From assembly GCA_029568545.1 (NCBI GenBank), contig JAKQAH010000084.1, positions 1 through 32,511 of the forward strand: a stretch of DNA of 32,511 nt, in the 5' to 3' direction. Each line of letters starts with the position of its first letter. The stretch's first letter is position 1. Below the pieces are notes generated by a model, which worked only from the letters and a program-made list of their open reading frames with translations, searched no databases and had not been told where the DNA came from. Position numbers and translations under genes: made by a program. Shown piece by piece: positions 4,704 through 21,974 of the stretch. The DNA comes from Candidatus Omnitrophota bacterium (GTDB lineage: Bacteria > Omnitrophota > Gorgyraeia > Zapsychrales > Zapsychraceae).

Positions 4704-4709
4704 AAGTGT

Positions 4710-4737
4710 TTGGCAGGCGGCGGATTTTCGGTAGAAT
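4710..4737 (+). promoter_or_regulatory. Probable promoter before gcvH
   Basis: TTGGCA at 4710-4715 and TAGAAT at 4732-4737 are separated by 16 bases, 60 bases upstream of the gcvH start. Each hexamer differs from consensus at one position. If used, it would let gcvH and gcvPA/PB be expressed separately from gcvT, which ends only 7 bases earlier. Confidence 0.5.
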
Positions 4738-4796
4738 AAACCATTTGATAAACACGGCATCTTAAGGTAAAAATATTTCAGGACCAGGAGAGAGAA

Positions 4797-5183
4797 ATGG
4801 ATATTGCAGAGCATCTGTTATACACCAAAGAGCATGAATGGATCAATATCGACGGCAACGAGGCGACGATCGGGATTTCGGATTACGCGCAGGAATCGCT
4901 GGGCGATATTACCTTTATTGAGCTTCCCGAGGTCGGCGACGAGGTCGAGCAATTCGAGGAATTCGTTTCTCTCGAGTCCGTAAAAGCGGCGAGCGACATT
5001 TTTGCGCCGATGTCGGGCGAGATCATTGCCGTCAATGACGATCTGGCCGACCATCCCGGGCTGATCAACAAATCCCCTTACGATAAGGGATGGATCGCCC
5101 GGATCAAGATCTCCGACCCCGAAGAGCATTCGAACCTCATGACGGCGGAAGAATACGGCAAGTTCCTGGAGAGCATCGGATAG
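4797..5183 (+). CDS. gcvH: Glycine cleavage system H protein (lipoyl carrier)
   Basis: 128 residues, the usual GcvH length. It is a small lipoyl-bearing shuttle that carries the aminomethyl intermediate between the P, T and L proteins. The sequence opens with LYTKEHEWINIDGNEATIGISDYAQESLGDITFIELPEVG. It carries the lipoylation site at Lys63 in the family context LESVKAASD, then APMSGEIIAVND and NKSPYDKGWIARIKI. All conserved features are intact. A ribosome binding site (AGGAGAGAG) precedes ATG 4797. The lipoate-protein ligase gene at the end of the cluster is the likely source of its cofactor. Confidence 0.95.
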   Translation: MDIAEHLLYTKEHEWINIDGNEATIGISDYAQESLGDITFIELPEVGDEVEQFEEFVSLESVKAASDIFAPMSGEIIAVNDDLADHPGLINKSPYDKGWIARIKISDPEEHSNLMTAEEYGKFLESIG

Positions 5184-5309
5184 CGCGCCTCCGGACATTA
5201 GCGCCGTTTCCCTCCCGAAGCAAAGTCATCGATCAACAAAAAGCGCAACGCTCACGATCCCCGAGAAGGTCGTTCCTTAAAGCAGCAAAGAACATCGAAG
5301 GTTTTATCC

Positions 5310-6653
5310 GTGATTCCTTACATTTCCAATACGCCAGATGATATTAGCGCCATGCTCAAGACGGTTGGCGTGTCTTGTATTGATGATCTTTTCCGCGATA
5401 TCCAGCCTCACCAAAAGCCCAAATCCTTTGATCTTCCCGACAGCAAGTCCGAATTTGAAGTGATCGAGCGCATGAAGCGGCTGGCGGCCAAGAACGCGAC
5501 GAACTTGATCCCGTTCATCGGCGGCGGCTATTATGACCATTATGTTCCTTCCGTTGTGCCCGCGCTTGTTTCCCGGGGGGAATTTTATACGGCCTACACG
5601 CCCTACCAGCCGGAATGTTCGCAAGGTACGCTGCAGGCGCTTTATGAATATCAAAGCGCGATCTGCGCCTTGACCGCCATGGAGGCCGCCAACGCGTCTC
5701 TTTATGACGGAGGAACGGCCCTTTACGAAGCGGTCATGATGGCGATCCGCATTACTGAGCGCAAGAAGGTCATCATGGACGGGGGCGTGAGCCCGATCTA
5801 CCGCAAGATCATCAAGACCTATACCGGCAATCTTCATTACGCATTCGAGGAAACCCCGGTCCTGCACGGGCAAAGCAGCCGGGACGAGATCGAAAAGCTG
5901 ATCGATGAGGATACGGCGGCCGTGATCCTGCAGAACCCGAATTTTTTCGGGGCGGTCGACGATCATTCCGATATTGTCGAAAAAGCGCATGCGCTGGGAT
6001 GCCTGGTGATCGAGAGCGTCTATCCGATTTCGTTGGGATTGCTCAAAACGCCGGGGGAGATGGGCGTGGACATTGTGACGGGCGAAGGGCAAAGCCTGGG
6101 GCTGCCGCTGAATTTCGGCGGGCCGTATCTCGGGTTCATGGCGACGCGGAAAAAATATATCCGCAAAATGCCCGGGCGCATCGTCGGCGAGACGGTTGAC
6201 GCCCAGGGCCGCCGGTGTTTTGTCAATACGCTGCAGGCGCGCGAGCAGCATATCCGACGGGAGAAAGCGACGTCCAATATTTGCACGAACGTCGCTCTGT
6301 GCGCGGTCCAATCCGCGATCTACCTATCGTTGCTGGGCAAGCAGGGTTTCAAGGAGCTTGCGCAGCTGAACCTCGACAAGGCGGAATTCGCCCGCCGGGA
6401 GATCGGGAAGATCGACGGCGTGGAAGTGAAGCGCAGCTCGCCGACCTTTAACGAGTTCACGGTGCATTTGCCGGTCGACGCTTCGATCGTCGTCGAAGCC
6501 ATGATCGACAGAGGATTTGCCGCGGGATTTCCGTTGGGACGTTACTATAAGGGGATGGAACGCTACATGATCGTTGCGGTCACGGAAAAGCGGACGAAAG
6601 AAGAAATTCTGGCGTATGTACGGGCGTTGAAAGAGGTTTTAAAGAACGTGTAA
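5310..6653 (+). CDS. gcvPA: Glycine dehydrogenase (decarboxylating) subunit 1
   Basis: 447 residues, the N-terminal-type subunit of the two-subunit P protein. With GcvPB it decarboxylates glycine using pyridoxal phosphate and passes the aminomethyl group to lipoyl-GcvH. It begins with GTG (IPYISNTPDDISAMLKTVGV), preceded by GAAGG. Family blocks include FIGGGYYDHYVPSVVP, AYTPYQPECSQGTLQALYEY, NASLYDGGTALYEA, GEGQSLGLPLNFGGPYLGF and RRCFVNTLQAREQHIRREKA. PLP binding is carried by the partner subunit. GcvPB starts 43 bases downstream, so the pair should be translated from one message. A 126-bp spacer separates it from gcvH, with no promoter I can identify. Confidence 0.95.
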   Translation: MIPYISNTPDDISAMLKTVGVSCIDDLFRDIQPHQKPKSFDLPDSKSEFEVIERMKRLAAKNATNLIPFIGGGYYDHYVPSVVPALVSRGEFYTAYTPYQPECSQGTLQALYEYQSAICALTAMEAANASLYDGGTALYEAVMMAIRITERKKVIMDGGVSPIYRKIIKTYTGNLHYAFEETPVLHGQSSRDEIEKLIDEDTAAVILQNPNFFGAVDDHSDIVEKAHALGCLVIESVYPISLGLLKTPGEMGVDIVTGEGQSLGLPLNFGGPYLGFMATRKKYIRKMPGRIVGETVDAQGRRCFVNTLQAREQHIRREKATSNICTNVALCAVQSAIYLSLLGKQGFKELAQLNLDKAEFARREIGKIDGVEVKRSSPTFNEFTVHLPVDASIVVEAMIDRGFAAGFPLGRYYKGMERYMIVAVTEKRTKEEILAYVRALKEVLKNV

Positions 6654-6695
6654 ATGGAGGGGCGCGCCGCGCTCCAATGTAGGGAAAATGGTTTT

Positions 6696-8150
6696 ATGGA
6701 TTTAATATTCGAAAAGAGCGTTGCCGGCCGCCGGGGATTTGAGAACCCCCGGTCCGATGTCGGGATCGCGGGTGAAATTCCCGCAAAATACCGCCGGAAG
6801 GAAGAATGCCCGCTGCCGGAGGTTTCCGAGCTGGATGTGGTGCGCCATTTCACAAAACTTTCCCAAAGGAATTTCTCCGTCGATACGCAATTTTACCCGC
6901 TGGGCTCCTGCACGATGAAATACAATCCCAAATTCACGGAAACAGTCGCGGCCATGGAAGGCTTCAGCTGCCTGCATCCGTTGCTGCCGCAATTGAAGCA
7001 GGGGGAGCGGCTGGTCCAGGGGGCGCTGGAAGTCATTTATGATCTGGAACAATTACTCTGTGAAATCACCGGCATGGACCGTTTCACGATGCAGCCGTTA
7101 GCCGGGGCTCATGGCGAGCTGACCGGCGTCATGATGATAGCGGCGTATCATAAGGCCAAGGGCAACAAGAAAAAATATATCATCGTTCCCGATTCGGCGC
7201 ACGGCACCAATCCCGCCACGGCCGCCATCGCCGGCTATGAAATCATTTCCGTCCGTTCCAATCAAGACGGCGGGATGGACCTGGCCGAGCTGAAGGACAA
7301 GATCACCGATGAGGTTGCCGGATTGATGCTCACGTGCCCGAATACGCTGGGGCTGTTCGATCCCGGGATTGACAAGATCGCGGCCATGATCCACGCGGTG
7401 GACGGGATCATGTACTACGACGGGGCCAATCTCAACGCGATCCTGGGCCGCTGCCGGCCGGGAGATATCGGGTTCGATGTCATGCACATCAATGTGCATA
7501 AAACGTTCAGCACGCCGCACGGCGGCGGAGGCCCGGGCGCCGGGCCCGTCGGGGTCACTCAAAAATTGGTCCCGTTCTTGCCGGTCTCGCTCGTTGATAA
7601 GCGCAAAGGCGGCACGTATTATCTGAATTACGATTATCCCCAATCGATCGGGTATATCGCGTCGTTTTACGGGAATTTCTCGATCTTGCTGCGCGCGTAT
7701 GCGTACATTCTCATGGCCGGCAAAAAAGGGCTTGAGGATGTCAGCAATCATGCGGTCTTGAACGCCAACTACATGAAAGAGCGCTTAAAAGAGCGTTTCG
7801 CATTGGCTTATGACCGCATCTGCATGCACGAATCTGTTTTTTCAGCGTCGCGCCAAGCGGAGCGGGGCGTGCACGCCATCGATATCGCGAAATTCCTGAT
7901 CGACCAGGGCCTGCATCCGCCGACGGTCTATTTCCCGCTTTCGGTCAAAGAATCCATCATGGTCGAGCCGACGGAAACCGAGTCGAAAGAGAGCATGGAC
8001 CGCTTCATCGCGTGCATGTTCGAGGCCGACGAGCTGAGCCAAACGCATCCCGAGACCTTCCAGGGCCTTCCCAAGACGATGCCGATCGCGCGCCCCGACG
8101 AAGTTAAAGCCGCGCGCGATATCAATACCAGTTATTTCCAAAGCCGATAG
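6696..8150 (+). CDS. gcvPB: Glycine dehydrogenase (decarboxylating) subunit 2
   Basis: 484 residues from ATG 6696, the standard length of the PLP-binding subunit of a split P protein. The start MDLIFEKSVAGRRGF matches the family opening. An in-frame ATG at 6654 would add 14 atypical residues, and AGGGAA at 6681-6686 suits 6696 better. Visible blocks are FYPLGSCTMKYNPK, DSAHGTNPATAA, YYDGANLNAILG and the PLP-lysine motif HINVHKTFSTPHGGGGPGAGP, with the Schiff-base lysine at about residue 269. The C-terminal domain contains PPTVYFPLSVKESIMVEPTE. The lipoate ligase follows after three bases. No lipoamide dehydrogenase (L protein) is encoded nearby. Confidence 0.95.
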   Translation: MDLIFEKSVAGRRGFENPRSDVGIAGEIPAKYRRKEECPLPEVSELDVVRHFTKLSQRNFSVDTQFYPLGSCTMKYNPKFTETVAAMEGFSCLHPLLPQLKQGERLVQGALEVIYDLEQLLCEITGMDRFTMQPLAGAHGELTGVMMIAAYHKAKGNKKKYIIVPDSAHGTNPATAAIAGYEIISVRSNQDGGMDLAELKDKITDEVAGLMLTCPNTLGLFDPGIDKIAAMIHAVDGIMYYDGANLNAILGRCRPGDIGFDVMHINVHKTFSTPHGGGGPGAGPVGVTQKLVPFLPVSLVDKRKGGTYYLNYDYPQSIGYIASFYGNFSILLRAYAYILMAGKKGLEDVSNHAVLNANYMKERLKERFALAYDRICMHESVFSASRQAERGVHAIDIAKFLIDQGLHPPTVYFPLSVKESIMVEPTETESKESMDRFIACMFEADELSQTHPETFQGLPKTMPIARPDEVKAARDINTSYFQSR

Positions 8151-8153
8151 CTC

Positions 8154-8879
8154 ATGCTGTTAAAAGATGTTTCTTTCCCTAGTCCCGAAGAAAATATCCT
8201 TTATGACGAGGTCTTGCTGCATCTGGCCGAGCAGGGGAAAAGCGGGGGCGTGTTGCGCTTTTGGGAATCGCCGGAAACATTCATTGTTTTGGGGCGCATC
8301 GGCAAGGAGCAGGACGATATCAAGATCGATGCCGCGCGCAAGGACCGCGTCCCGGTCCTGCGGCGCGCCTCCGGCGGCGGAACGGTCGTTCAGGGCAAAG
8401 GATGCCTCAATTACAGCCTTGTTTTACCGAAACCCCCGGGATCTCCGCTTGCGGACCTGCGCGGATCCTATGCCTATATTCTCGGGAAAGTGATCGCCGC
8501 GTTGAAGATGCTTGATGTCGAGACCGTATTCTGCCCGATTTCGGATATTGCCTTGGCGGAAAGCCTAAGAAAGGTATCCGGCAACGCGCAAAAACGCGGG
8601 CGGCATTTCTTTCTCCATCATGGCACTATCCTTTATGATTTTGATCTCACCGCCATGGAGCGCTATTTGCATCTTCCCAAAGATATTCCCGAATATCGCC
8701 GGGGCCGGACACATCCGGAATTTGTGGCCAATATCCCCCGGGCGGTAGCGGACATCAAGAATGCCTTAAGCGATGTTTTTGGCGTTGACCGCCGGGAATG
8801 CGATCTGGACACGGACGAAAGAGATGGCTTAAAGGCATTTTTAAGCCGGAGGAATGCTGCCGTGAAACTTGTCGCATAA
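8154..8879 (+). CDS. Lipoate-protein ligase A family protein, short form
   Basis: 241 residues of the biotin/lipoate ligase fold. It most likely attaches lipoate (or octanoate) to Lys63 of the GcvH encoded three genes upstream. The family substrate-binding motif RRASGGGTVVQGKGCLNYSLV lies at residues 70-90, the conserved lysine motif RKVSGNAQ at 139-146 and HHGTIL at 155-160. It is shorter than E. coli LplA (about 337 residues) and lacks the C-terminal accessory domain. It could therefore be a two-part ligase needing a partner, or a LipM/LipL-type transferase; the sequence alone does not decide. The ATG is three bases after the gcvPB stop, so it is part of the gcv transcript. Linkage to gcv supports GcvH as substrate. 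Confidence 0.82.
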   Translation: MLLKDVSFPSPEENILYDEVLLHLAEQGKSGGVLRFWESPETFIVLGRIGKEQDDIKIDAARKDRVPVLRRASGGGTVVQGKGCLNYSLVLPKPPGSPLADLRGSYAYILGKVIAALKMLDVETVFCPISDIALAESLRKVSGNAQKRGRHFFLHHGTILYDFDLTAMERYLHLPKDIPEYRRGRTHPEFVANIPRAVADIKNALSDVFGVDRRECDLDTDERDGLKAFLSRRNAAVKLVA

Positions 8880-10359: not shown

Positions 10360-11235
10360 ATGAGCTATTATAAAGTTCTTGGATTCGAGAAAGAGCCATT
10401 TTCCACAAGTCCCGATCCTCATTTTTTTTATCTTTCCCGAGAGCACGAACAGGCCCTCACCAACACGATCATTGAGTTGCGTTTGCGAAGGGGCTTAAGC
10501 GTGATCTTAGGTGACATCGGCACCGGCAAAACAACATTATCCCGCAAATTGATCCAGGAGCTTAAATCCCGCCGGGATGTCATTTTCCATATCATTCTTG
10601 ATCCAACCTTTGAGAGCGAGCGCGATTTTCTTTATTCGTTGGCCCGCAATTTTCAGATCTCTCTCAACGACATGTCCGGCGCCATGTCGTTGGATATCCG
10701 CGAAGCCCTCGAGAAATTCCTTTTTCAGAAAGGCGTGACGGAGAATCAATCCGTCGTGCTGATCATTGACGAAGCGCAAAAATTAAGCGACAGGTCTTTG
10801 GAGATGCTGCGCGTCCTGCTGAACTACGAAACCAACGAATACAAGCTGCTGCAGCTGGTCCTGCTGGGGCAGACCGAATTGCACGAGAAGATCATCCATA
10901 TCCCGAATTTTTTTGACAGGATCAGTTTTAAATATACGCTCAACCCCCTCAGCCTCGAGGAGACGGAAGAGATGATCGGCTTCCGCATCGAGCGGGCCGG
11001 GTACACGGCGCGGATGCATTTGTTCTTAAAGGACGCAATCGCGGAAATTCACCATGTCACACAGGGCTATCCCCGACGGATAACGATGCTGTGCCACAAG
11101 GCGCTCAAGGAATTGGTCATGCGCAACAAATCTGTGGTCGATGCCGGTGTGATCGAAGATATCGTTCAAAATGAAATGCGGACCGGATGGCACAGGAAAG
11201 ATCCACTACTCCTGAAAAACAGTTACTCGACTTAA
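10360..11235 (+). CDS. ExeA-like AAA ATPase
   Basis: A 291-residue AAA+ ATPase of the ExeA/GspA group. It begins with the typical YKVLGFEKEPFSTSPDPHFFYLSREHEQAL. Walker A is GDIGTGKTT at residues 51-59 and Walker B is VVLIIDEAQ at 132-140. The sensor-1 region is LVLLGQTEL (167-174) and a probable arginine finger lies in FFDRISF (R187). In Aeromonas, ExeA works with ExeB to insert or assemble the type II secretion secretin at the peptidoglycan. Unlike ExeA, this protein ends without a TM segment or a peptidoglycan-binding domain. The neighbouring membrane-anchored protein and secretin support a secretin-assembly or pilus-type role. Its end overlaps the next gene by 49 bases. Confidence 0.85.
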   Translation: MSYYKVLGFEKEPFSTSPDPHFFYLSREHEQALTNTIIELRLRRGLSVILGDIGTGKTTLSRKLIQELKSRRDVIFHIILDPTFESERDFLYSLARNFQISLNDMSGAMSLDIREALEKFLFQKGVTENQSVVLIIDEAQKLSDRSLEMLRVLLNYETNEYKLLQLVLLGQTELHEKIIHIPNFFDRISFKYTLNPLSLEETEEMIGFRIERAGYTARMHLFLKDAIAEIHHVTQGYPRRITMLCHKALKELVMRNKSVVDAGVIEDIVQNEMRTGWHRKDPLLLKNSYST

Positions 11236-11885
11236 TAGAGGACCCGAGAGAACAGGATGTCAGCCAGCAAAAGATCAAGCGGCGGTCTTTTAGCCTGTTT
11301 TCGTTTTCGGCCTTGAGGGGCCGTCTTTCTTTTTTATTGGAGCGCGCCCGTTCGGGGCCGATTTTTAAAAAAGCCCTCCCTGATATCAAAGGGCTCAATA
11401 AGATCCTGAAGGTTTGCATCTTGGCGTTGGCGGTTTATCTCGTTGGGAATTTCCTGATGTCGTTGAGCAGGATCAAAAAAATTCCCGAATTCGGGGATAA
11501 AAATTCCCGGGCCGCCAAAGAAATACCGTTGGCGGGTTTATCGAGCAAGAAGGTCAACTATTATCTCGATGGGCCACGCGGACGCGATATTTTCAAGTTT
11601 GGCGACTTTGGGGCCATTGCGGAAAAAGGGGCGGATGAAACGGACGAAGTAACGGCCCCTGTCGTTGAAACCCTCTCGCAATCGGAAATCCTCGCTCAGC
11701 AACTGGGATTGGTGGGGATCGGATGGTCCGACGATCCGGACGTGATGGTGGAGAACACGGAGACCAAAAAGATTTATTTCCTCAAACGAGGGCAAAAAAT
11801 CGAAGGGCGGATCAAGGTCGAAGCGATTTTTGAAGACAAAGTGGTTTTGACCTATGACAACGGCAAAGAAATGGAATTGCGCTGA
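11187..11885 (+). CDS. PilP/GspC/GspB-like inner-membrane protein
   Basis: 232 residues: a charged cytoplasmic N-terminus, one transmembrane segment at about 72-93 (ILKVCILALAVYLVGNFLMSL), then a periplasmic part. The last 60 residues (LGLVGIGWSDDPDVMVENTE...IYFLKRGQKIEGRIKVEAI...VVLTYDNGKEMEL) have the pattern of the small beta domain of PilP/GspC, which contacts the N-domains of secretins. Position between an ExeA-like ATPase and a secretin supports this; GspB, the usual ExeA partner, is the alternative. Translation from ATG 11187 overlaps the ATPase gene by 49 bases in a different frame. The exact start is less certain than the identity of the domain. Confidence 0.65.
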   Translation: MAQERSTTPEKQLLDLIEDPREQDVSQQKIKRRSFSLFSFSALRGRLSFLLERARSGPIFKKALPDIKGLNKILKVCILALAVYLVGNFLMSLSRIKKIPEFGDKNSRAAKEIPLAGLSSKKVNYYLDGPRGRDIFKFGDFGAIAEKGADETDEVTAPVVETLSQSEILAQQLGLVGIGWSDDPDVMVENTETKKIYFLKRGQKIEGRIKVEAIFEDKVVLTYDNGKEMELR

Positions 11886-11905
11886 AGCATAACGGGCATC
11901 ATCAT

Positions 11906-13840
11906 ATGAAAAAATACCTGATATTTATTTTCGCGCTTATTGCGGTGTTTTGCGGCCAATCGGCGTTGCGCGCCCAGGACGCCATGGAACCGGATGATCC
12001 TGAAACGATTGTCGCCGGAGATGAAGGGTTATTTGACACAACGGCGCCGGCGGCCGGGAACCTCGAAAATTTAGGCGCAGCTGAGGAACAAGAAAATGTT
12101 CAGGATGTTCCGGCAGACTTAAGAGATGAGCAAGAGAGCGCGGGCTTCGGGGAGCCTGCGGAAGAAAAAGCCGCCGCAACGATCGATCAGGCCGCGAAAG
12201 AGGAAACAGCGAGCGAAACTGAACAAACGCTCCCGAAATCCATCCGGCCCCGCCACGTCGATATGAACCAGCGCATCACTTTGGATTTGCGCAACATGGA
12301 TGTCAATGATGCCTTCACGTATCTATCCCTGAGAAGCGGGGCCAATATCGTTACCAGCAAGGCCGTGAGCGGGCGCGTCACGCTTCAACTGAAGGAGATT
12401 TCCCTGCAGGATATTTTCGATATCACTTTGCTTACGAACAATCTGGCATACGAAAAAAGAGGGGATATTTTCTATATCATGACGTCGGCCGAGTACGAGG
12501 AGCGTTACGGCCGCAGTTTCGGTGATATCCGCAAGGTCGAAATGTATCAATTGAAATATGCTATTCCCGAGAAAGCCTTCGACCTCCTGGATACGCTGAA
12601 AAGCAAGATCGGCCGCATCCTTGTGGACCAGGAATCCGGAACGGTCCTGATGGTTGACACGGTGGAAAAGATCAAGGAAATGAAAGAGGCGCTGGTGGTT
12701 TTGGAACGGAAAAGCGAAGTTACGGTTTTCAATCTGCAGTATGCCGTTGCGACCGATGTCGAGGAGCGGTTGCGGGGCGAGCTCAATGAGAAGAATGTGG
12801 GATCGATTTGGGCCGATGAGCGCAGCAACCAGGTGGTCGTCGAGGCCTTACCGGACCGCATGGAAGACATGAAAAGGATCATTGCGGCCTTGGATCAAAA
12901 GACCAAAGAGGTCTTGATCGACGCCAAGATCATTAAGGTGGATTTTTCCGATACGTTGGAGACCGGCGTTGAATGGGAAGGGATGTTTAAAAGTCTTGTC
13001 GGCAGCGGCTCATTCCTGGGCAGCCATCCGCTTGAGCCTGTCGTGCGTGCCGGACAAACATTCATCGATGATTTCACGGAGATTGCGCCTGAGGACGAAA
13101 ATCCGCCCGCCGGGGCAAAAACTACTTATGCGGAACGCATCTTTTTCGGGAAGATGGAAGAGGGAAGCACGAATTTTGAAGTAATGATGAAGTTTTTAGG
13201 AACATTGGGCGAGACGAAGCTTCTTTCCAATCCTAAATTGGCCGTTGTCAACAATCAGGAGGCGCGGATCCACGTCGGGCGCAAGGAAGCCTATATTACG
13301 ACGACCACAACCTCCGGTTCGACAACGACAACAACCGCGGAAGATGTCAACTTTGTCGATATCGGCATCCAGCTTTCTGTCACACCGACGATCAATGATG
13401 ACGGTTATGTCACGATGAAGATCAAGCCCGAGGTCAGCAGCCGGGTGGATACGCTGATCACGCCCAGCGGCAACCAGATCCCGATCATCGACACGTCGAT
13501 GGCCGAAACGACCGTGATGGTGGAAGATGACGCGACGATCATCATCGGCGGATTGCGCCGCGACGAAGAGACCGAAATCTCGAAACGTTTTCCGATCTTG
13601 TCCGACATCCCTCTGCTCGGGAATATTTTCAAGAACCAGAGCAAGCGGACGCAGCGTTCCGAACTGCTCGTCATGATCTCCCCGCACATTGTGGATGGCA
13701 CAATGGTGACGACCGGGGATGTGGACCCCGGCGAAGACGGAACGAAAGAATTCAAGGATTATAAGACCTTTGAAGGCATCGATGACGAAGTCTATGGGCC
13801 GGAGTTCGGGAAGCTGGAGTATAAATCTTTTCGTGACTGA
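11906..13840 (+). CDS. Secretin (type II secretion/type IV pilus outer-membrane channel)
   Basis: 644 residues with a signal peptide (cleavage near AQ, residue 24). An acidic, Ala/Glu-rich low-complexity stretch of about 90 residues follows. The STN/N0-type domain is at about 120-195 (QRITLDLRNMDVNDAFTYLS...GRVTLQLKEISLQDIFDITL). Two N1-like KH folds lie at about 212-265 and 273-330 (VEMYQLKYAIPEKAFDLL; VFNLQYAVATDVEERLR...ADERSNQVVVEA). The secretin barrel is at about 425-597, with LLSNPKLAVVNNQEARIHVG, VDIGIQLSVTPTI, ETTVMVEDDATIIIGGLR and the end motif FPILSDIPLLGNIF...ELLVMISPHIV. It forms a multimeric gated outer-membrane pore. A Thr-rich run near 465-477 lies in the gate region. No separate GspE/F/G genes are present, so the exact system (T2SS, T4P or a stand-alone secretin) cannot be fixed. 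Confidence 0.92.
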   Translation: MKKYLIFIFALIAVFCGQSALRAQDAMEPDDPETIVAGDEGLFDTTAPAAGNLENLGAAEEQENVQDVPADLRDEQESAGFGEPAEEKAAATIDQAAKEETASETEQTLPKSIRPRHVDMNQRITLDLRNMDVNDAFTYLSLRSGANIVTSKAVSGRVTLQLKEISLQDIFDITLLTNNLAYEKRGDIFYIMTSAEYEERYGRSFGDIRKVEMYQLKYAIPEKAFDLLDTLKSKIGRILVDQESGTVLMVDTVEKIKEMKEALVVLERKSEVTVFNLQYAVATDVEERLRGELNEKNVGSIWADERSNQVVVEALPDRMEDMKRIIAALDQKTKEVLIDAKIIKVDFSDTLETGVEWEGMFKSLVGSGSFLGSHPLEPVVRAGQTFIDDFTEIAPEDENPPAGAKTTYAERIFFGKMEEGSTNFEVMMKFLGTLGETKLLSNPKLAVVNNQEARIHVGRKEAYITTTTTSGSTTTTTAEDVNFVDIGIQLSVTPTINDDGYVTMKIKPEVSSRVDTLITPSGNQIPIIDTSMAETTVMVEDDATIIIGGLRRDEETEISKRFPILSDIPLLGNIFKNQSKRTQRSELLVMISPHIVDGTMVTTGDVDPGEDGTKEFKDYKTFEGIDDEVYGPEFGKLEYKSFRD

Positions 13841-13881
13841 GAAGGACTCGTAAAAAAGGGAAACGATAGGAGAAGGCGGGC

Positions 13882-15006
13882 ATGAATCGAATCTTACATT
13901 GGGCCGTGTTGACGACAGCTTTAGCTGCGCTGGGCGCTTCCCCTGCCGATAGCGCTTCGTTCTCAGATATGTTCGGCGGGAAGAAAGCCCAGGAATACAA
14001 GGCCGTTCTCGAGGAGAAAGAGCAGGAATGCCAGGCTAAGCTCGCCGAGAAGGACCGCCTTTATCAGCAGCTGTCCAATGACAGCGCCGGCGCTTTTCAG
14101 ACCATTCAGGGTCTGCGGGATAAGAACGCGACGCTGATGCAGGCTTACGAGAAGTTGAAAGTGGACCAAGGCAGCGTCACGGAGCAGATCACGCGTTTGC
14201 GGCGGGAAAACCAAGCGTGCAGTGACATCAAGAGCTCGTATGATAAGATGACCCAGGAGAACCAGGCGTTCATGGGTGAAAAGCAGTCGTTGGCCCAAAA
14301 GGCCCAGCAGAACGAAGCTACCGTGGAAAACCTCAAGAAGCATTTGAAGGAAGTGACGGCGGAAAAAGACCAACTCGCCGTCTTTCTCGCGGAAGCGCAG
14401 GAAGACGAGGATGTCAAGATCAAGAACATCCGGGACCAGGTGAAAGCGGAGATGGATGGCCTCAAGAAGCAAGTGGCGATGCTGACGCAGGAAAACAGCG
14501 CGGTGGCCAAACAATTAGCGGAAGCGCAGAAGCAATTGCGGTCCTCCCAGAACGAAGGCGTCGATCTCGTAAAAAAGATGGATCTTCTGAGGGCTGAACT
14601 GGAGGCCTCCGAGAAACGGCAAGAAGAGATCAAGAAAGAAAATATCTATCTCGCGAAAGAAGCCACGCAATTTCCCCAGAAATTTGCCGATTTGGCCCGC
14701 CATAACCGGAAACTTGTCAGTGAGACGGCGGACATGCATTATAATCTTGGGGTGTCGAATATCAAAAACAAAGAGTACAAACGCGCAATCAAGGAGTTCG
14801 AAAAGGTACTTGAGCTCAAGCCCGACGATGCTTATGCCAACTACAACCTGGGCTATATCTATGCTGAGCATCTGGTCGACCGGGAGAAAGCGATCGAGCA
14901 TTTCAAGAAATATCTTACTTATGCGCCCAACGAAAAGGATGCCAATTGGGTCAGAAAATATGTCCTGACGTGGCAAACATGGTACAAAAAGAATATTGCT
15001 AAATAG
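13882..15006 (+). CDS. Exported coiled-coil protein with C-terminal TPR domain
   Basis: 374 residues. A signal peptide covers about the first 25 residues (WAVLTTALAALGASPADSA). Then comes about 240 residues of nearly uninterrupted heptad-rich coiled coil (dense in Glu, Lys, Gln, Leu). A TPR unit pair lies at about 283-352 (MHYNLGVSNIKNKEYKRAIKEFEKVLELKPDD, AYANYNLGYIYAEHLVDREKAIEHFKKYL). The strong ribosome binding site AGGAGAAGG precedes ATG 13882, 41 bases after the secretin. I do not recognise a named family. The architecture suggests a periplasmic scaffold, possibly a pilotin/assembly-type partner of the secretin. That role is inferred only from operon position and from the general use of TPR proteins in secretin assembly. 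Confidence 0.75.
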   Translation: MNRILHWAVLTTALAALGASPADSASFSDMFGGKKAQEYKAVLEEKEQECQAKLAEKDRLYQQLSNDSAGAFQTIQGLRDKNATLMQAYEKLKVDQGSVTEQITRLRRENQACSDIKSSYDKMTQENQAFMGEKQSLAQKAQQNEATVENLKKHLKEVTAEKDQLAVFLAEAQEDEDVKIKNIRDQVKAEMDGLKKQVAMLTQENSAVAKQLAEAQKQLRSSQNEGVDLVKKMDLLRAELEASEKRQEEIKKENIYLAKEATQFPQKFADLARHNRKLVSETADMHYNLGVSNIKNKEYKRAIKEFEKVLELKPDDAYANYNLGYIYAEHLVDREKAIEHFKKYLTYAPNEKDANWVRKYVLTWQTWYKKNIAK

Positions 15007-15057
15007 GCCGATGACCATCGCCATCCAAAAATCACTTTTACCTTTGAGGTCAGCATC

Positions 15058-18000
15058 GTGAAGAACAAACGTATTCTCATTCTTTTGGGCTTTGTCTTTT
15101 TTTCTTTTGCCCTGATATTATCCCCGCGGCCCGGATCTGCCGAGGGTGAGGTTATTATCCCGGGTATTGTCGAGGTTGAAGAAAATCATCTCTACATGGT
15201 TCCGATCGGGACGGATGACGGCGTCAAGAAAGGCGATACCGTCGAGATCATCCGCAACGATCAGAAAATCGCCGATGCGCGGCTGATCTCCGTGCTGTCG
15301 GACAATTCGATGGCGGAGATCGTCGTGATGTTCATCCGCACGGATATCCTCGAATCTGATTCCGTCAAATTTACCGAGAAAAAGGACGAAGTAGCGCGGG
15401 CCGCAAGGCGCAAAACGCTGACGACAAGCGAGCGGACGGTCGTGGAAGAGGCCCCCGCCAGGGCGGTCACGGAGGTCAAAGCGTCGGAGGACAAACGCCG
15501 CGGCCTTCTGGGCAGCGAAATGCACCGCTATGAGGAGGTTGCCGCGGTGGAAGGCCCGCTTAAGCAGGAGATCGAACAGTTGAAAGCGGGGCTGGTCACG
15601 GTCCGGGACGAATATGAAGGGAAGATCGATACGATCCTCAGCTCTGTTCAAGGGTCCTCCAAGGATGCGTTGGCCGTCGAGAAAAAGTGGCAGGATAAAT
15701 TGATTTCGACCGAAAAGAGATATCAGGCGCAGTACAATGAGCGCAAAAAACTTTTGGAACGGGAATCGGCCAGGCTGGAGGCGAAAGTCGCGCAATTGAC
15801 GAATGAATTGAAGGTTGTCAACGAAGGAACGGACAAGCGCATCGAGCAGCTGCTGTCCGACCTTAAAGAGAAAGAGGCGGAGATCTCTTCCATAAAGAAA
15901 CAGTTTGTCGAGGAGCATTTAGCCGGCGAAAAACAATGGCAAGCAAAACTGGAGAATCTCGAGGCGCAGTATCAGGGCCAATTACGGACGCTGGAAGAAT
16001 CATTGAAGAAGGAATCGGCGACGAGCCAAGAGCAATCGCAAAAAGACATCAGCAGTTTGGCGGGCGAATTGGCCTCGGTAAGGGAGCAGGCCCGCAGCGC
16101 AACCGATAATTTTCAAATACGGCTCAAAGAGCGGGAAGATCTCATTGATGCCTTGCGCCAAGACCAGATCGCGCTGGAATCTGACCTGAGCCGGGAACGC
16201 GAGCGGGCCAATAAGCTGGAAGGGGATATTGTCACCTTAAAAGATGTGATCGCCGCAGCCAAAAGGGTTCATGAGAAAGAGCTTGCGTTTGCGCAAAAAC
16301 CGCTCGAGAAAAAAATCGAGGATATGAGCGTCGATTTTATTGCTACGAAACATCAATATGAAAACGAACTCAACGCCCTTCGCCAAGGCGCGCAAGAAGA
16401 CCTGCTCAAGAACGAATCCCAATGGGTCGAAAAACTTGCGTCCGTGGAACAGAATTATCAAACACAACTCAATGATTTGAATGTCAAAACTGCCGCGCAG
16501 GTGAACCAATTGCGGGCCGAGTTGGAAGGCCAAAACAACGTCATCGATTTGCTCAAACAAAATAACGCGGAGCTTGCGGCTAAGCTTCAGGCCAGCGAAC
16601 AGGCCTTTGCGCTGGCCCACAACGATATCAAAACCCTGGAAAAGCAGATAACAATTGACCGGGCGACCCGGACTGAAAAAATCAATCTGGCCAAACAGCC
16701 TCTTGAGGCGAAAGTTGCGGAACTCAGCGCCCAGATCGTGGTTCTCCAGAAACAACATGAAGCCAAGACCGGCGAGGACGCTTCGGTGATCGAGTTTCTT
16801 AACGGAAGCATGGCGGAGTTGACCAGTGACTTGGAAGCCCGGGAAAAGCAGCTGGGCGAGCTTCAAGAGCGTTTTTCAATTTCACAGAATGAGCTCGAGG
16901 CTTTGAAAAAATCTTATACGGATGGGATTGCGCTTGCCAAAAAACCTTTAGAAGATCAGATGGAAGATCTTTATGCTCAAAGTGTTGCTCTTAAAGCGGA
17001 CTATGAAAACCAGATCAAGACGCTCCAAGAAAATGCCAGTCGGGATCTTTTGGCGTCGGAAGAGAAATGGCAGATGCAGTGGGCGGCCAAAGAAGCGGAA
17101 ATGGACACAGCCAAACAATCTCTGGCAGATCAGGTTCTTGCGCTGCAGGCGTCGATGGATTCATTGAATAAAGAGCATGATGCCAAGGTGCAGGAAATGG
17201 CAGCTATCGCGGAAAAAGATCAAGCTTCGGTTAATGAGCAATGGCAAGCGAAATTGGCTCAGTTGCAGGACGATCATCAGAAAGAGCTTGCGTTGAAACT
17301 TCGGGAGAGGCAAGGTGTTATCGATGGATTGGAGAGTGAGAAGCTCGAATTAGCAAGACAGATTCCGGCGTTGCAGGAAGAGTACGAGAAAAAGATGAAA
17401 GCGGTTGAAGACGAATTTGCGCAAAATCAGAGCGTCAGTGATCAAAAGTGGCAGGAGAGGTTAGCTCAAATCCAGAATGATTATCAAGGGGAGCTTGGAA
17501 CGAAGTTGCAGGAGAAGCAAGTTGCTATTGACCGGTTGGAGAGTGAGAAGCTCGAATTAGCAAAACAGATTCCGGCGTTGCAGGAAGACTATGAAAAGAA
17601 GATAAAGCTTCTTATCGAAGAATCCGGCAGGGATCGGGCGGTTAGTGATCAGCAATGGCAAGCGAATTTGGCTCAGTTGCAGGACGATCATCAGAAAGAG
17701 CTTGAGACGAGACTGCAAGAGAGGCAGACTATTATTGACCAGCTGGAGGATGAAAAGTTTGAGTTGGCAAAACAAATCCCGGTTTTGCAGGAAGAATATG
17801 AGAAGAAAATGAAGGTCATTGCGGATGAATTTGCCCAGAATAAAACTTCCAATGATCAGCAATGGCAGGCGAAACTGGATGAAAAAGATACGGCGATTGC
17901 TTTATTGGAGAATGAGCGCCTTGGCCTGACAGAGCAGTTAAGCGCTCTGAAGAAAGACAGCAGCAGCGTGATCGAAGAATTGCAGGTCCAATCCTCGAGA

Positions 18001-20799
18001 AAGCAAGAGGAAATTGATGCCTTGACGACGGCCAAATCCGATCTGGCCTCTCAATTGGCCCAGACGGGCAGCCTTTTGGCCAAAGCGCAGAACGATATCG
18101 CTGTTCTCAAGAGCCAGATCAGCGAGACGGAAGCGGCCCGCGCGACGTGGATCACTTCTGTCAAAAAACCGCTGGAAGATGAAGTCAAGAAATTGAATGA
18201 CGAGATCGTCCAGCTCAACGAGGCTCATAAAAACGAGATTCAAGCGATCGAACAAAACGCCGCGGCGAATGCGGAAAGTTTGGATAAGAAATGGCAGGAA
18301 AAATTGGCTGAGAAAGATGGCGAGATCGCCGAGCTTACGAAAGCATCCGAGATCGCGTCGCAATCGAGGATCGCGGAAAATGACCAGGTCTGGGCCGATA
18401 AAATGGCGAAGGCCGAACAGGCGTATCAGGAACAGTTGAAGAAACAAGAAGAGGGGCTGCAGGCAAAGATCGCCGATCTTAGCCAAGCTCTTGAGGTTTT
18501 GCGCAAAGACAGCGGGAGCGTGATTGTTCAATTGCAGACCGACCTCAAGGCCAAGCAAACCGCTATTGACGCGCTGGAAAACACGAAATCCGGATTTGAG
18601 ACGGCTATCACCCAGAAAGAGGAGGAGCTGTCGGGATTGCGCGACGAAATAGCTCAATTGAAGAAAGATCTCAAAGCCAGCGATTCTTTGAAGGACAATG
18701 CGGCTAAATCTTCGGCGGAAATCGCCCGTTTAAAAGACCAAATGCAGGAATTGAAAGGGGCCAATGCCCGCGAGGAAGAGGCCCTGAAGAAAGATTTAGA
18801 GATCGAACGGCAGACTGTCGCTGATCTCGAGAAAAAGCTTGCCGAGCAGGAATCGTCGAGCATTCAACGCGCGCAGCTGGCCAAAGAATCTTTGGAGGCC
18901 GAGATCAAGACGCTGAAAGCGGAACTGGCTTTCACGAAAAGCCAGCATGAACAAAAAACGACTGCCTTGCTGGAAAGAGCGAGTGAAAATCAAACGGTTT
19001 CGGAAAAGGAAGGGCAGGCGAAATTAGCGGCTAAAGAGGCCGAATGGCAGGCGAGATGGGCGGCGCGCCAAGCCGAGCATCAGGAAGAGCTCAATGCCGA
19101 GCTGGCGGCCTTGGAACAAAAATTATTCGGCGGGAAAAAAGAAGTGCGGCAAACGGTTGTCGATCTCAATAACCGTTTGAGCATGCTCAAGAACAGCAGT
19201 GACAGCCAGATCAGGGAACTGGAAGCGGAATTGGCGGCCCAGCAATATCAACTATCGATCAAGGAAAGCGAAGCTCAAGAGCGGCTGATCGAGGCTGAGA
19301 AAAAATGGAAAGACAATGCGGCGTTATTGGAGAAAGCCTATCAGGAGAAACTTGAGCAGGAAAAACGCGCGCTCAACGAGAATTTCCTCGCCGAGAAGAA
19401 AGAATTGCGCGAAACCGTCGTGGACCTCACCCGGCAGTTCAGCGAATTGCGCGACGGCAGCAACAGCCGCATCAAAGCTCTTGAAACCGAAATTGAGAAA
19501 AGGGATTATAAGATCAGCTTGCTTGAGAATAGCTCCGAGCAGAATATTGTCGGGACGGAAGAAAAATGGCAGGCCAAGCTTACCGCGCTAGAGGAGAAAC
19601 GCCAAAGGGAATTGCTGGAGCAGAAACGGGATATGCAAAACCAGTCTCTCGTGATGCAGGAAAAGTTGCAGGCAACAGTCGCCGATCTTACGAAACAGCT
19701 TGATGCGATGCGGGACCAATCCAGGCTGGACCTTGCGATGAAAGACGAGGAGCGGGCGGCGGAGGTCGCGCTTCTGGAACGCAAATATCAGGACCAGCTC
19801 TCGACGGCTAAAACGGGAACAAGCAATGAGGTGGCGCAACTTTCCGCGAAAGTCCAATGGCAGCAGGATTTGATCGATTCCCTGAAAACGGAGAAAAGCG
19901 GGTTGACGCTTGATCTCGAGGAGAGGGAGCGCGAACTGGCAAGGTATCGGGCTTCGATCGAAGATTTAAAGAAAGAATCGAAGATGGCGGAATTGACCCA
20001 GTCGGAGAGGGTGAGGCTATCCAAGCAGTCGCTGGAGTCCCAAATCCAGGACCTGACCGCCCAGCTGAGCATCGCAAATAAGAAAGCCGAACAGGATCGG
20101 GCCGCATTGGAGGACCTCTGGAAGAATAAGCTGGCAAGGGCGGAGGAAGAGTATCTGCAAAAACTGAAGCTTCAGCGCCAGAGCATGGAGCAGGAGAAGG
20201 CGGATTTGAATAATAGGGTCGGATCCTTGGCCAGCACTCGCGATGAAGAGATCAACGAAATCCGGGCGGAGCTGGAAGACAATCAAACCCTTATCCGGCT
20301 GCTGAGCAAGGAAAAATACGATCTCGCCGATAAACTGGAAGCCAAAAGCCGGGAGATCGTCCGGCTCAACGAGGAGATCATTGACCTCAAAGAGGGGCTG
20401 GAAACATACAAGGACCTGGCCTCGTCCGGAACCGCCGGCGGATATGATATAAAAAGCGATGGGAATATCGCGTCCGAAGAAAAATCACGGTACGGAAATA
20501 ATACGATAGCCACGACGGAAGATTATTACACAGTTGTCCGCAAGGCGATCTTAGACAAATTCAAAGAATCCGATTTCTCGAAATATGAAGGCCGCGAGGA
20601 TGTCGTGAAGATCGATTTTGAGCTTTTCGCCAACGGTTCGCCTAAGAAAGGCCCGGAGTTTTTCGGAACGGAGGATGAAGGGCTCAAGGACCTATTAACC
20701 CAGTGCTTTGAAGACGCGTTGCCTTTTCCGCCGTTCCCGGAGAATTTAGGAAAAGAATCTCAGCGGTTTTCCCTGGGGATTTCTTTTAGGAAGAAATAA
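15058..20799 (+). CDS. Giant exported coiled-coil protein with SH3-like N-terminus and TonB-like C-terminal domain
   Basis: 1,913 residues from GTG 15058, preceded by GAGGT. A signal peptide covers about residues 1-28. A small beta domain at about 30-110 (GIVEVEENHLYMVPIGTDDGVKKGDTVEIIRNDQKIADARLISV) has the 'GV..GD' pattern of SH3-like/FlgT-C-type domains. Residues of roughly 165-1770 are almost entirely coiled coil, with a recurring W-Q-x-K-L motif and a block of near-identical 69-residue tandem repeats. The last 96 residues (about 1818-1913) form a TonB C-terminal-type domain: DYYTVVRKAILDKF, VVKIDFELFANGSP, then ALPFPPFPENL and FSLGISF. No classical TonB proline-rich region is seen. It may bridge periplasmic components, but it could also be an extracellular or periplasmic structural rod. 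The function is unknown. Confidence 0.85.
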   Translation: MKNKRILILLGFVFFSFALILSPRPGSAEGEVIIPGIVEVEENHLYMVPIGTDDGVKKGDTVEIIRNDQKIADARLISVLSDNSMAEIVVMFIRTDILESDSVKFTEKKDEVARAARRKTLTTSERTVVEEAPARAVTEVKASEDKRRGLLGSEMHRYEEVAAVEGPLKQEIEQLKAGLVTVRDEYEGKIDTILSSVQGSSKDALAVEKKWQDKLISTEKRYQAQYNERKKLLERESARLEAKVAQLTNELKVVNEGTDKRIEQLLSDLKEKEAEISSIKKQFVEEHLAGEKQWQAKLENLEAQYQGQLRTLEESLKKESATSQEQSQKDISSLAGELASVREQARSATDNFQIRLKEREDLIDALRQDQIALESDLSRERERANKLEGDIVTLKDVIAAAKRVHEKELAFAQKPLEKKIEDMSVDFIATKHQYENELNALRQGAQEDLLKNESQWVEKLASVEQNYQTQLNDLNVKTAAQVNQLRAELEGQNNVIDLLKQNNAELAAKLQASEQAFALAHNDIKTLEKQITIDRATRTEKINLAKQPLEAKVAELSAQIVVLQKQHEAKTGEDASVIEFLNGSMAELTSDLEAREKQLGELQERFSISQNELEALKKSYTDGIALAKKPLEDQMEDLYAQSVALKADYENQIKTLQENASRDLLASEEKWQMQWAAKEAEMDTAKQSLADQVLALQASMDSLNKEHDAKVQEMAAIAEKDQASVNEQWQAKLAQLQDDHQKELALKLRERQGVIDGLESEKLELARQIPALQEEYEKKMKAVEDEFAQNQSVSDQKWQERLAQIQNDYQGELGTKLQEKQVAIDRLESEKLELAKQIPALQEDYEKKIKLLIEESGRDRAVSDQQWQANLAQLQDDHQKELETRLQERQTIIDQLEDEKFELAKQIPVLQEEYEKKMKVIADEFAQNKTSNDQQWQAKLDEKDTAIALLENERLGLTEQLSALKKDSSSVIEELQVQSSRKQEEIDALTTAKSDLASQLAQTGSLLAKAQNDIAVLKSQISETEAARATWITSVKKPLEDEVKKLNDEIVQLNEAHKNEIQAIEQNAAANAESLDKKWQEKLAEKDGEIAELTKASEIASQSRIAENDQVWADKMAKAEQAYQEQLKKQEEGLQAKIADLSQALEVLRKDSGSVIVQLQTDLKAKQTAIDALENTKSGFETAITQKEEELSGLRDEIAQLKKDLKASDSLKDNAAKSSAEIARLKDQMQELKGANAREEEALKKDLEIERQTVADLEKKLAEQESSSIQRAQLAKESLEAEIKTLKAELAFTKSQHEQKTTALLERASENQTVSEKEGQAKLAAKEAEWQARWAARQAEHQEELNAELAALEQKLFGGKKEVRQTVVDLNNRLSMLKNSSDSQIRELEAELAAQQYQLSIKESEAQERLIEAEKKWKDNAALLEKAYQEKLEQEKRALNENFLAEKKELRETVVDLTRQFSELRDGSNSRIKALETEIEKRDYKISLLENSSEQNIVGTEEKWQAKLTALEEKRQRELLEQKRDMQNQSLVMQEKLQATVADLTKQLDAMRDQSRLDLAMKDEERAAEVALLERKYQDQLSTAKTGTSNEVAQLSAKVQWQQDLIDSLKTEKSGLTLDLEERERELARYRASIEDLKKESKMAELTQSERVRLSKQSLESQIQDLTAQLSIANKKAEQDRAALEDLWKNKLARAEEEYLQKLKLQRQSMEQEKADLNNRVGSLASTRDEEINEIRAELEDNQTLIRLLSKEKYDLADKLEAKSREIVRLNEEIIDLKEGLETYKDLASSGTAGGYDIKSDGNIASEEKSRYGNNTIATTEDYYTVVRKAILDKFKESDFSKYEGREDVVKIDFELFANGSPKKGPEFFGTEDEGLKDLLTQCFEDALPFPPFPENLGKESQRFSLGISFRKK
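17239..17859 (+). repeat. Three tandem 207-bp repeats inside the giant coiled-coil gene
   Basis: Units begin at 17239, 17446 and 17653, each exactly 207 bases (69 codons), and a fourth partial copy starts at 17860. Each starts with a WQ-containing segment and contains LESEKLELAKQIPALQEEYE or a close variant. Some sub-segments are almost identical at the DNA level, for example GAGAGTGAGAAGCTCGAATT in units 1 and 2. This implies recent tandem duplication and a site prone to copy-number change. Confidence 0.9.
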
Positions 20800-21586: not shown

Positions 21587-21615
21587 TTGACAATAGCTGA
21601 TTTATCAGGTAACCT
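21587..21615 (+). promoter_or_regulatory. Promoter of the riboswitch-controlled operon
   Basis: A perfect TTGACA (21587-21592) is followed by a 17-bp spacer and TAACCT (21610-21615). The predicted transcription start is about 21622, about ten bases before the riboswitch aptamer. The order promoter, aptamer, terminator is coherent. Confidence 0.65.
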
Positions 21616-21631
21616 TTTAGTGAACAAAATA

Positions 21632-21719
21632 TATGACTCGAAAAGGCAAACTCAGAGCGATCTGAGGGCGCAAAGCTGTGCATCCTTTTCCCGTAAGGAA
21701 CGGCAAGCTACCGAAATCG
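21632..21719 (+). promoter_or_regulatory. Cyclic-di-GMP-I (GEMM)-like riboswitch aptamer
   Basis: The conserved GEMM elements occur in order. AAAAGGCAAAC is at 21641-21651. A hairpin of CTCAGA and TCTGAG is closed by a GCGA (GNRA) tetraloop (21651-21666). GGCGCAAAGC is at 21667-21676, matching the invariant CGCAAAGC core. A second hairpin, TCCTT/AAGGA, lies at about 21683-21699, and the closing ACGGCAAGCTACCGAAATCG ends at 21719. The fold and motifs match the class I c-di-GMP riboswitch family. Some GEMM variants bind cGAMP, and I cannot settle the ligand by eye. An intrinsic terminator follows 12 bases later, so the switch probably controls transcription termination into the genes starting at 21975. 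Confidence 0.8.
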
Positions 21720-21731
21720 TAAAAAACACAG

Positions 21732-21758
21732 ATCCAGGCAAACTGCCTGGATTTTTTT
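21732..21758 (+). terminator. Intrinsic terminator of the riboswitch expression platform
   Basis: ATCCAGGC (21732-21739) pairs perfectly with GCCTGGAT (21745-21752) across a 5-nt AAACT loop. A run of seven T follows (21752-21758). It is a textbook rho-independent terminator directly downstream of the GEMM-like aptamer. Confidence 0.9.
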
Positions 21759-21773
21759 ATGTTCATTAACAAG

Positions 21774-21784
21774 GTGCCAGGCAC
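21774..21784. repeat. Palindrome GTGCCAGGCAC, copy 1
   Basis: An 11-bp palindrome (GTGCC-A-GGCAC) preceded by AAG. The same element recurs 72 bases downstream, and a half copy overlaps the start codon of the next gene. Short palindromes of this kind commonly accompany REP-associated transposases. Confidence 0.7.
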
Positions 21785-21794
21785 AAGGGTTCAA

Positions 21795-21830
21795 GTTGGG
21801 AAAAAATGAGATTTTCCCAACGGTTTTTTT
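21795..21830 (+). terminator. Second terminator-like hairpin in the operon leader
   Basis: GTTGGGAAAA (21795-21804) is perfectly complementary to TTTTCCCAAC (21812-21821), with a 7-nt loop. GG and then seven T (21824-21830) follow. It would require a second read-through event, or reduce basal leakage, for transcription from the riboswitch promoter. Confidence 0.7.
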
Positions 21831-21845: not shown

Positions 21846-21856
21846 GTGCCAGGCAC
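21846..21856. repeat. Palindrome GTGCCAGGCAC, copy 2
   Basis: An exact second copy of the 11-bp palindrome, in context AAAGTGCCAGGCACT. The nine bases AAAGTGCCA recur at 21972-21980, where the GTG is the start codon of the transposase-like gene. Confidence 0.7.
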
Positions 21857-21882
21857 TCCGTTGAAAATAGCTCAAATCCTTC

Positions 21883-21947
21883 GTCATTCTGAGCGAAGCG
21901 AAGAATCTCAATAGGCCAGATCCTTCGCCCTTCGGGCTCAGGATGAC
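21883..21947. repeat. REP/MITE-like imperfect inverted repeat
   Basis: The left arm GTCATTCTGAGCGAAGCGAA... (21883-21908) is an imperfect inverted copy of the right arm AGATCCTTCGCCCTTCGGGC...GATGAC (21918-21947). The outer 12 bases match at 11 of 12 positions. TCATTCTGAGCGAAGCGAAG is a dispersed extragenic palindrome I recognise from many bacterial genomes. Its position just upstream of a RAYT-like gene gives a REPtron-like arrangement. Confidence 0.75.
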
Positions 21948-21974
21948 AATGGAGAGCAAAAAAGGCGGGTTAAA

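Follow-up and report, generated by a model that had tools for sequence, protein, structure and literature searches.

A c-di-GMP-I riboswitch with its own promoter as the probable attenuator of a conserved RAYT fusion and giant surface-type protein operon in Omnitrophota

Introduction

Which signal decides whether a bacterium makes a surface protein of several thousand residues? For the Omnitrophota we know of no genetics anywhere in the phylum, and to our knowledge neither the role nor the control of their giant proteins has been established. Giant open reading frames (ORFs) encoding predicted surface proteins were described in this phylum by Seymour et al. 2023 (PMC10066038), in a text in which neither c-di-GMP nor transposase occurs.

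Here, we analyzed a stretch of 32,511 nucleotides (the window) that covers positions 1 to 32,511 of contig JAKQAH010000084.1 in the Candidatus Omnitrophota assembly GCA_029568545.1 (1.4 Mb, 78% complete). A first-pass annotation, made from its letters and reading frames, had placed a c-di-GMP-I-type riboswitch with a promoter and a terminator of its own ahead of genes for a RAYT fusion protein, a small exported protein, and a giant repeat protein. RAYT proteins are normally nucleases of the transposition type. The locus raises the question of what this switch senses, which genes it serves, and what a RAYT-derived protein does at the head of such an operon.

Results

Promoter, terminators, and genes of the window

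The order of promoter, aptamer, terminator, RAYT fusion, small exported protein, and giant protein is as first described (Table 1), and with the leader palindromes included it recurs in three relatives, two of the same genus and one from a different one (G001, G004, and G020). The proposed TTGACA/TAACCT promoter is present at its place, and in the same three relatives we found TTGACA, a 17-nt spacer, and a -10 element of the form TAxxCT or TATTCT. It is on this conservation that the promoter call rests, in place of a sigma-70 consensus scan, which detected no promoter in the region because the -10 element of the window fits the consensus at 3 of 6 positions. Transcription is expected to start near 21622.

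The terminator likewise stood up, as an 11-bp stem (21730-21754) with a U-tract follows the aptamer and is conserved in related genomes. Five terminator-like sites were observed in the region against 0.8 expected, and the leader folds with a z of -3.8, a stability equaled by none of 200 dinucleotide shuffles. A second hairpin with a T-run, not listed in the first-pass annotation and flanked by two REP-like palindromes, is also legible in G001, G004, and G020, where the two GTGCCAGGCAC palindromes enclosing it are separated by 71-74 nt. This second hairpin is not general among the other 40 fusion loci, whereas the aptamer-terminator pair is. About 90 nt of the leader (21866-21955) are unique to the window and absent in the three relatives; they contain GTCATTCTGAGCGAAGCGAAGAATC, which occurs 5 times in the assembly when up to 3 mismatches are allowed.

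Table 1. Positions of the features of the window discussed in the text.
Feature	Positions	Strand	Evidence
AAA ATPase beside secretin	10360-11235		Pfam
Secretin, type II/IV-pilus-like system	11906-13840	+	Pfam
TPR protein beside secretin	13882-15006		Pfam
Upstream exported protein, 207 aa	20872-21495	+	Domain related to fusion C-terminal domain
Promoter: TTGACA (21587-21592), 17-nt spacer, TAACCT (21610-21615)	21587-21615	+	Direct reading and conservation
Extended P1: AUGA (21633-21636) with UCGU (21717-21720)	21633-21720	+	Flank-pairing permutation test, weak here
c-di-GMP-I riboswitch aptamer	21635-21715	+	cmscan RF01051, 55.0 bits
Intrinsic terminator 1, GAUCCAGGCA AAC UGCCUGGAUUUUUUU	21730-21758	+	Reading, terminator scan, orthologue conservation
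REP-like palindrome 1, GTGCCAGGCAC	21774-21784		Motif scan
Second terminator-like hairpin with T-run, flanked by the two palindromes	21795-21828	+	Terminator scan
REP-like palindrome 2, GTGCCAGGCAC	21846-21856		Motif scan; also in relatives
RAYT-transmembrane-beta fusion, 423 aa	21975-23246	+	Pfam PF01797, conservation
Small exported protein, 144 aa	23236-23670	+	Signal peptide by inspection; homologues at same place elsewhere
Giant repeat protein, Ig/KNH-like repeats, at least 2944 aa	23678-32509	+	Pfam, ORF; runs off contig

Further upstream, on the same strand, the stretch 10360-20799 encodes the AAA ATPase, a 232-aa protein, the secretin, the TPR protein, and a first large protein (1913 aa). 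Judged by its genes, this may be a pilus- or secretion-like cluster, and other genomes also have members of it upstream of the fusion. The exported protein encoded next to the riboswitch promoter matches the C-terminal domain of the fusion at 24% (E 9e-4). Ordinary glycine-cleavage genes (T, H, P1, and P2) and a lipoate ligase gene occupy 3594-8879.

Class and ligand of the aptamer

The covariance-model scan that the first-pass annotation had proposed as the decisive check gave a significant match to RF01051, with 55.0 bits against a gathering score of 35 (E 2.6e-8 within the window), and thus bears out the c-di-GMP-I (GEMM-like) identity that had been read by eye. The cmscan alignment places AAAAGGCAAAC, GGCGCAAAGC, and CUACCGAA at the equivalents of Vc2 G20, A47, and C92, which we take to be the ligand-pocket residues, and all three are present. 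The core of the aptamer is CGCAAAGC, with G at the position equivalent to G20, and its P2 reads CUCAGA-GCGA-UCUGAG with a GNRA loop (GCGA). Going by this core, the ligand is probably c-di-GMP.

Two neighboring classes were rejected for the window. The c-di-GMP-I-GGC class (RF03167) has the consensus CGCGAA, i.e., G at the A47 position, where the window has CGCAAA; for overall shape, the RF03167 model still fits several relatives. A cGAMP-type GEMM-I aptamer would carry A at position 20, where the window has G. The fusion-linked aptamers of two other genomes, G119 (L116) and G273 (L125), do have A at the G20-equivalent position and, by that residue, might sense cGAMP.

P3 is of an RUGC...GGCA(G) subtype without the usual tetraloop receptor, unlike known c-di-GMP-I riboswitches: the CUAAG/UAUG receptor, which is common in this class but not required by RF01051 for membership, is gapped in the cmscan alignment of the window. 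The RUGC-type P3 is mostly common to the fusion-linked aptamers and was found in none of 33 unlinked ones, 8 of which have RUGA instead.

Recurrence of the unit across Omnitrophota

Full-length fusions turned up in many families, and in at least one further class, when we searched 384 Omnitrophota genomes with an alignment of the fusion. From these we took 44 fusion loci, mostly the best-scoring matches and not a random draw, with the locus of G203 and L079, which are the same organism, counted once. By cmscan, 34 of the 44 have an aptamer of the c-di-GMP-I clan directly upstream of the fusion, among them 33 that score at or above a gathering score and that of G001, accepted at E 6.5e-10; in G020, aptamer and fusion are separated by one gene. 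At seven more loci an aptamer is legible by eye below threshold, several of them with large P2 inserts, and in G210 it is located between the fusion and the small and giant genes. Two of the 44 loci, those of G255 and G102, have no aptamer. Of 19 ordinary RAYT loci, which lack the fusion, none had an aptamer; L079, scanned along with them as a twentieth, does carry one but encodes a fusion.

An ORF of at least 1000 aa follows the fusion at 30 of the 44 loci, and among the 14 without one, 13 end at a contig edge while G167 has 9 kb of downstream sequence. Giants that are complete measure 4111, 5078, 8471, and 10,669 aa. Homologues of the window's neighboring genes were found in other loci for the giant protein (33), the secretin (14), the AAA ATPase (17), and the TPR protein (18), and almost all of them lie on the side of the fusion that corresponds to the window. 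Local variants occur as well. At the G167 locus (L149, G167:C20), two RAYT fusions stand in tandem, a c-di-GMP-I aptamer accompanies each of them, and those 9 kb contain no ORF of 1000 aa. G020 has an extra exported-protein gene between the palindromes and the fusion and, between its upstream exported gene and the riboswitch promoter (L075 9861-10584), two small ORFs that by inspection resemble MNT/HEPN toxin-antitoxin genes.

This phylum-wide recurrence of the unit, together with G210, supports the link between switch and giant-protein operon that had been drawn from the window. Since the G210 switch lies between the RAYT gene and the small and giant genes, the giant's side of the operon is likely its target.

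Other c-di-GMP-I switches in the phylum

The assembly of the window has five RF01051 matches, four of them above cut-off, and seven GGDEF matches, i.e., domains for c-di-GMP synthesis. A hairpin with a T-run follows each of the five aptamers. One of them precedes the fusion operon, and the other four precede a response regulator, a type IV pilin, and two small ORFs, one exported and one Cys-rich. The pilin gene is preceded by a weaker c-di-GMP-I match (L009 3737-4520, G000:C1; 30.9 bits) with a terminator, and other genomes (L058 and L064) have comparable pilin targets. RF01051 matches occur in 55 of 55 genomes of the order-level set and in none of 14 well-known control genomes. For 34 sampled switches, the next genes often encode exported proteins or pilins, and 16 of the switches have a stringent terminator within 160 nt, while this was so for 1 control stretch and shuffles predict 0.1.

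The RAYT domain and its palindromes

The N-terminal domain of the fusion is a Y1_Tnp domain (PF01797, E 1.7e-8) that aligns weakly, but over its whole length, with E. coli TnpA-REP (4er8, E 0.018). A hydrophobic helix near residue 240 and an extracytoplasmic-type C-terminal domain follow. Close relatives of the protein are from Candidatus Omnitrophota metagenome-assembled genomes. When mapped onto 4er8, the HUH histidines of the window fusion are replaced by S and Y. Among the 44 fusions, both histidines are present in 24 and both with the tyrosine in 18, while 26 have lost at least one of these three residues. The RAYT part is nonetheless the most conserved of the protein, with 75% identity against 46-50% for the rest (the window's own fusion versus G001 and G004), and where dS is measurable its dN/dS is about 0.06-0.12, including a pair in which both members lack HUH. 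Purifying selection combined with HUH loss indicates that the window's domain is in use, but in this lineage not in the role of an HUH nuclease.

REP-like palindromes lie within 450 nt upstream of the fusion at 36 of 44 loci, against 2 of 44 in a background 3.5-kb stretch. Matches to GTGCCAGGCAC numbered 4, both strands counted, where 0.25 were expected by chance; the motif is limited to the fusion locus in the window genome, G004, and G020, and both copies in the window assembly are at that locus. CAGG, the core of the palindrome, is found in the terminator arm of 20 of 24 parsed fusion-linked switches. The leader palindromes are probable binding sites of the RAYT domain. We rejected a reading of the locus as a mobile element: there is a single Y1_Tnp gene and two GTGCCAGGCAC copies in the assembly, and synteny is conserved, which argues against recent insertion.

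Leader geometry and the direction of switching

Taken together, we consider it probable that the c-di-GMP-I riboswitch, driven by its own promoter, is a transcription attenuator of the conserved operon of RAYT-transmembrane fusion, small exported protein, and giant surface-type protein. RNA polymerase would start near 21622 and transcribe the aptamer; ligand binding would close P1, and the adjacent, compatible terminator would form, meaning that c-di-GMP promotes termination (OFF). When c-di-GMP is scarce, P1 would leave its 3' strand unpaired, and that strand could pair with the terminator base and so allow read-through into the operon. All three genes would presumably be controlled on one transcript.

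The distance from the end of the aptamer to the start of the terminator is 5-51 nt in each of the 24 parsed fusion leaders, so that the two do not overlap and can coexist as in an OFF geometry. Pairing between the 5' flank and the post-aptamer spacer beats 500 of 500 permutations across 23 leaders, from which it follows that P1 extends into the spacer. The spacer can also pair with the 5' arm of the terminator in an antiterminator-like way, which is clear in G001, G020, G203, and G281, weak in the window (pairing about 0.44), and borderline over the set (p 0.052). Because of this borderline pairing and the weak antiterminator of the window, we lean toward the OFF polarity with some reserve and hold the ON polarity to be unlikely. 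Two other forms of switching were tried and rejected: as a set, the leaders form a general antiterminator hairpin no better than shuffles (mean z -0.2), and pairing between the aptamer 3' half and the terminator arm does not exceed that seen with permuted partners (p 0.30).

Discussion

Alternatives to an attenuator that c-di-GMP turns off differ in what they make of the ligand and of the RAYT gene. If c-di-GMP instead relieved termination, it would turn the giant protein on, in keeping with the common link of this messenger with attachment and with Bc2, an ON switch ahead of the collagen adhesin gene cap (PMC4933901). ON geometry does occur within the same family, where in one switch of G020 (L048, G020:C49) the 5' arm of the terminator is the aptamer's own 3' strand. 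However, neither the window nor any of the 24 parsed fusion leaders shows such overlap, and with terminator and aptamer apart there is no evident route by which the ligand would block termination. G020 itself carries both this ON-geometry switch and an OFF-like fusion leader.

The ligand might also bind while the genes are hardly switched, with constitutive attenuation by two serial terminators and with an independent promoter or a processed transcript serving the operon. The weak antiterminator and the conserved position of the second hairpin fit this, and by analogy to Bacillus Bc1, where the second of two terminators (T2) masks the first (PMC11218506), the second terminator upstream of the gene could mask the switch. 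Yet it is the aptamer-terminator pair and not the second hairpin that is general at the other 40 loci, and different classes of the phylum have preserved the aptamer core, leaving this a rather improbable account. We give very little credence to the idea that the switch serves an inserted RAYT element and the giant gene is a bystander. The RAYT gene does come first in the operon and has REP-like flanks of its own, but phylum-wide the trio of fusion, small, and giant genes remains linked in one order, the G210 switch sits beyond the RAYT gene, and ordinary RAYT genes lack a switch. The preferred reading thus remains an attenuator for the whole operon, within which a form of two-input control can be tentatively proposed: the riboswitch would gate transcription, and the membrane-anchored, nuclease-dead RAYT would bind the paired GTGCCAGGCAC palindromes, either in leader DNA or in read-through RNA. 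If so, RAYT binding would feed back on operon expression or would tether the operon to the membrane beside the secretion machinery while a giant protein that can reach about 10,000 residues is synthesized and exported.

With known c-di-GMP-I riboswitches (GEMM-I, RF01051), e.g., Vc2 or Bacillus thuringiensis Bc2/cap, the window has in common the aptamer core, a transcription-terminator platform, and a surface-protein target, though Bc2 is an ON switch for one adhesin while the platform of the window has OFF-like geometry and precedes a RAYT-small-giant operon. Like Bacillus thuringiensis Bc1, it has a c-di-GMP-I aptamer followed by two intrinsic terminators, but in the window REP-like palindromes flank the second hairpin on both sides, and a RAYT-derived gene follows. 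REP-associated tyrosine transposases (RAYT/TnpA-REP, 4er8) similarly combine a Y1_Tnp domain with REP-like palindromes adjoining the gene; the window protein differs from them in its fusion to a membrane helix and an exported-type domain, in the lack of HUH, in its single copy, and in its control by a riboswitch. In the openly accessible journal literature, we found neither the operon nor its riboswitch, membrane-anchored RAYTs, or the locus-specific aptamer subtype. The combination, which the first-pass annotation had not seen described, is with 34 of 44 fusion loci not a single-genome curiosity. The aptamer belongs to a known class; the conserved operon and its fusion are, within that literature, new.

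A riboswitch kept before the giant-protein operon across families and classes names c-di-GMP as a signal in the control of these proteins. The switch also provides a cheap in vitro assay through which this control becomes testable. Beyond regulation, the locus shows a RAYT that has become a membrane-anchored component of a surface-protein operon and has kept its palindromes, after its catalytic residues were lost repeatedly.
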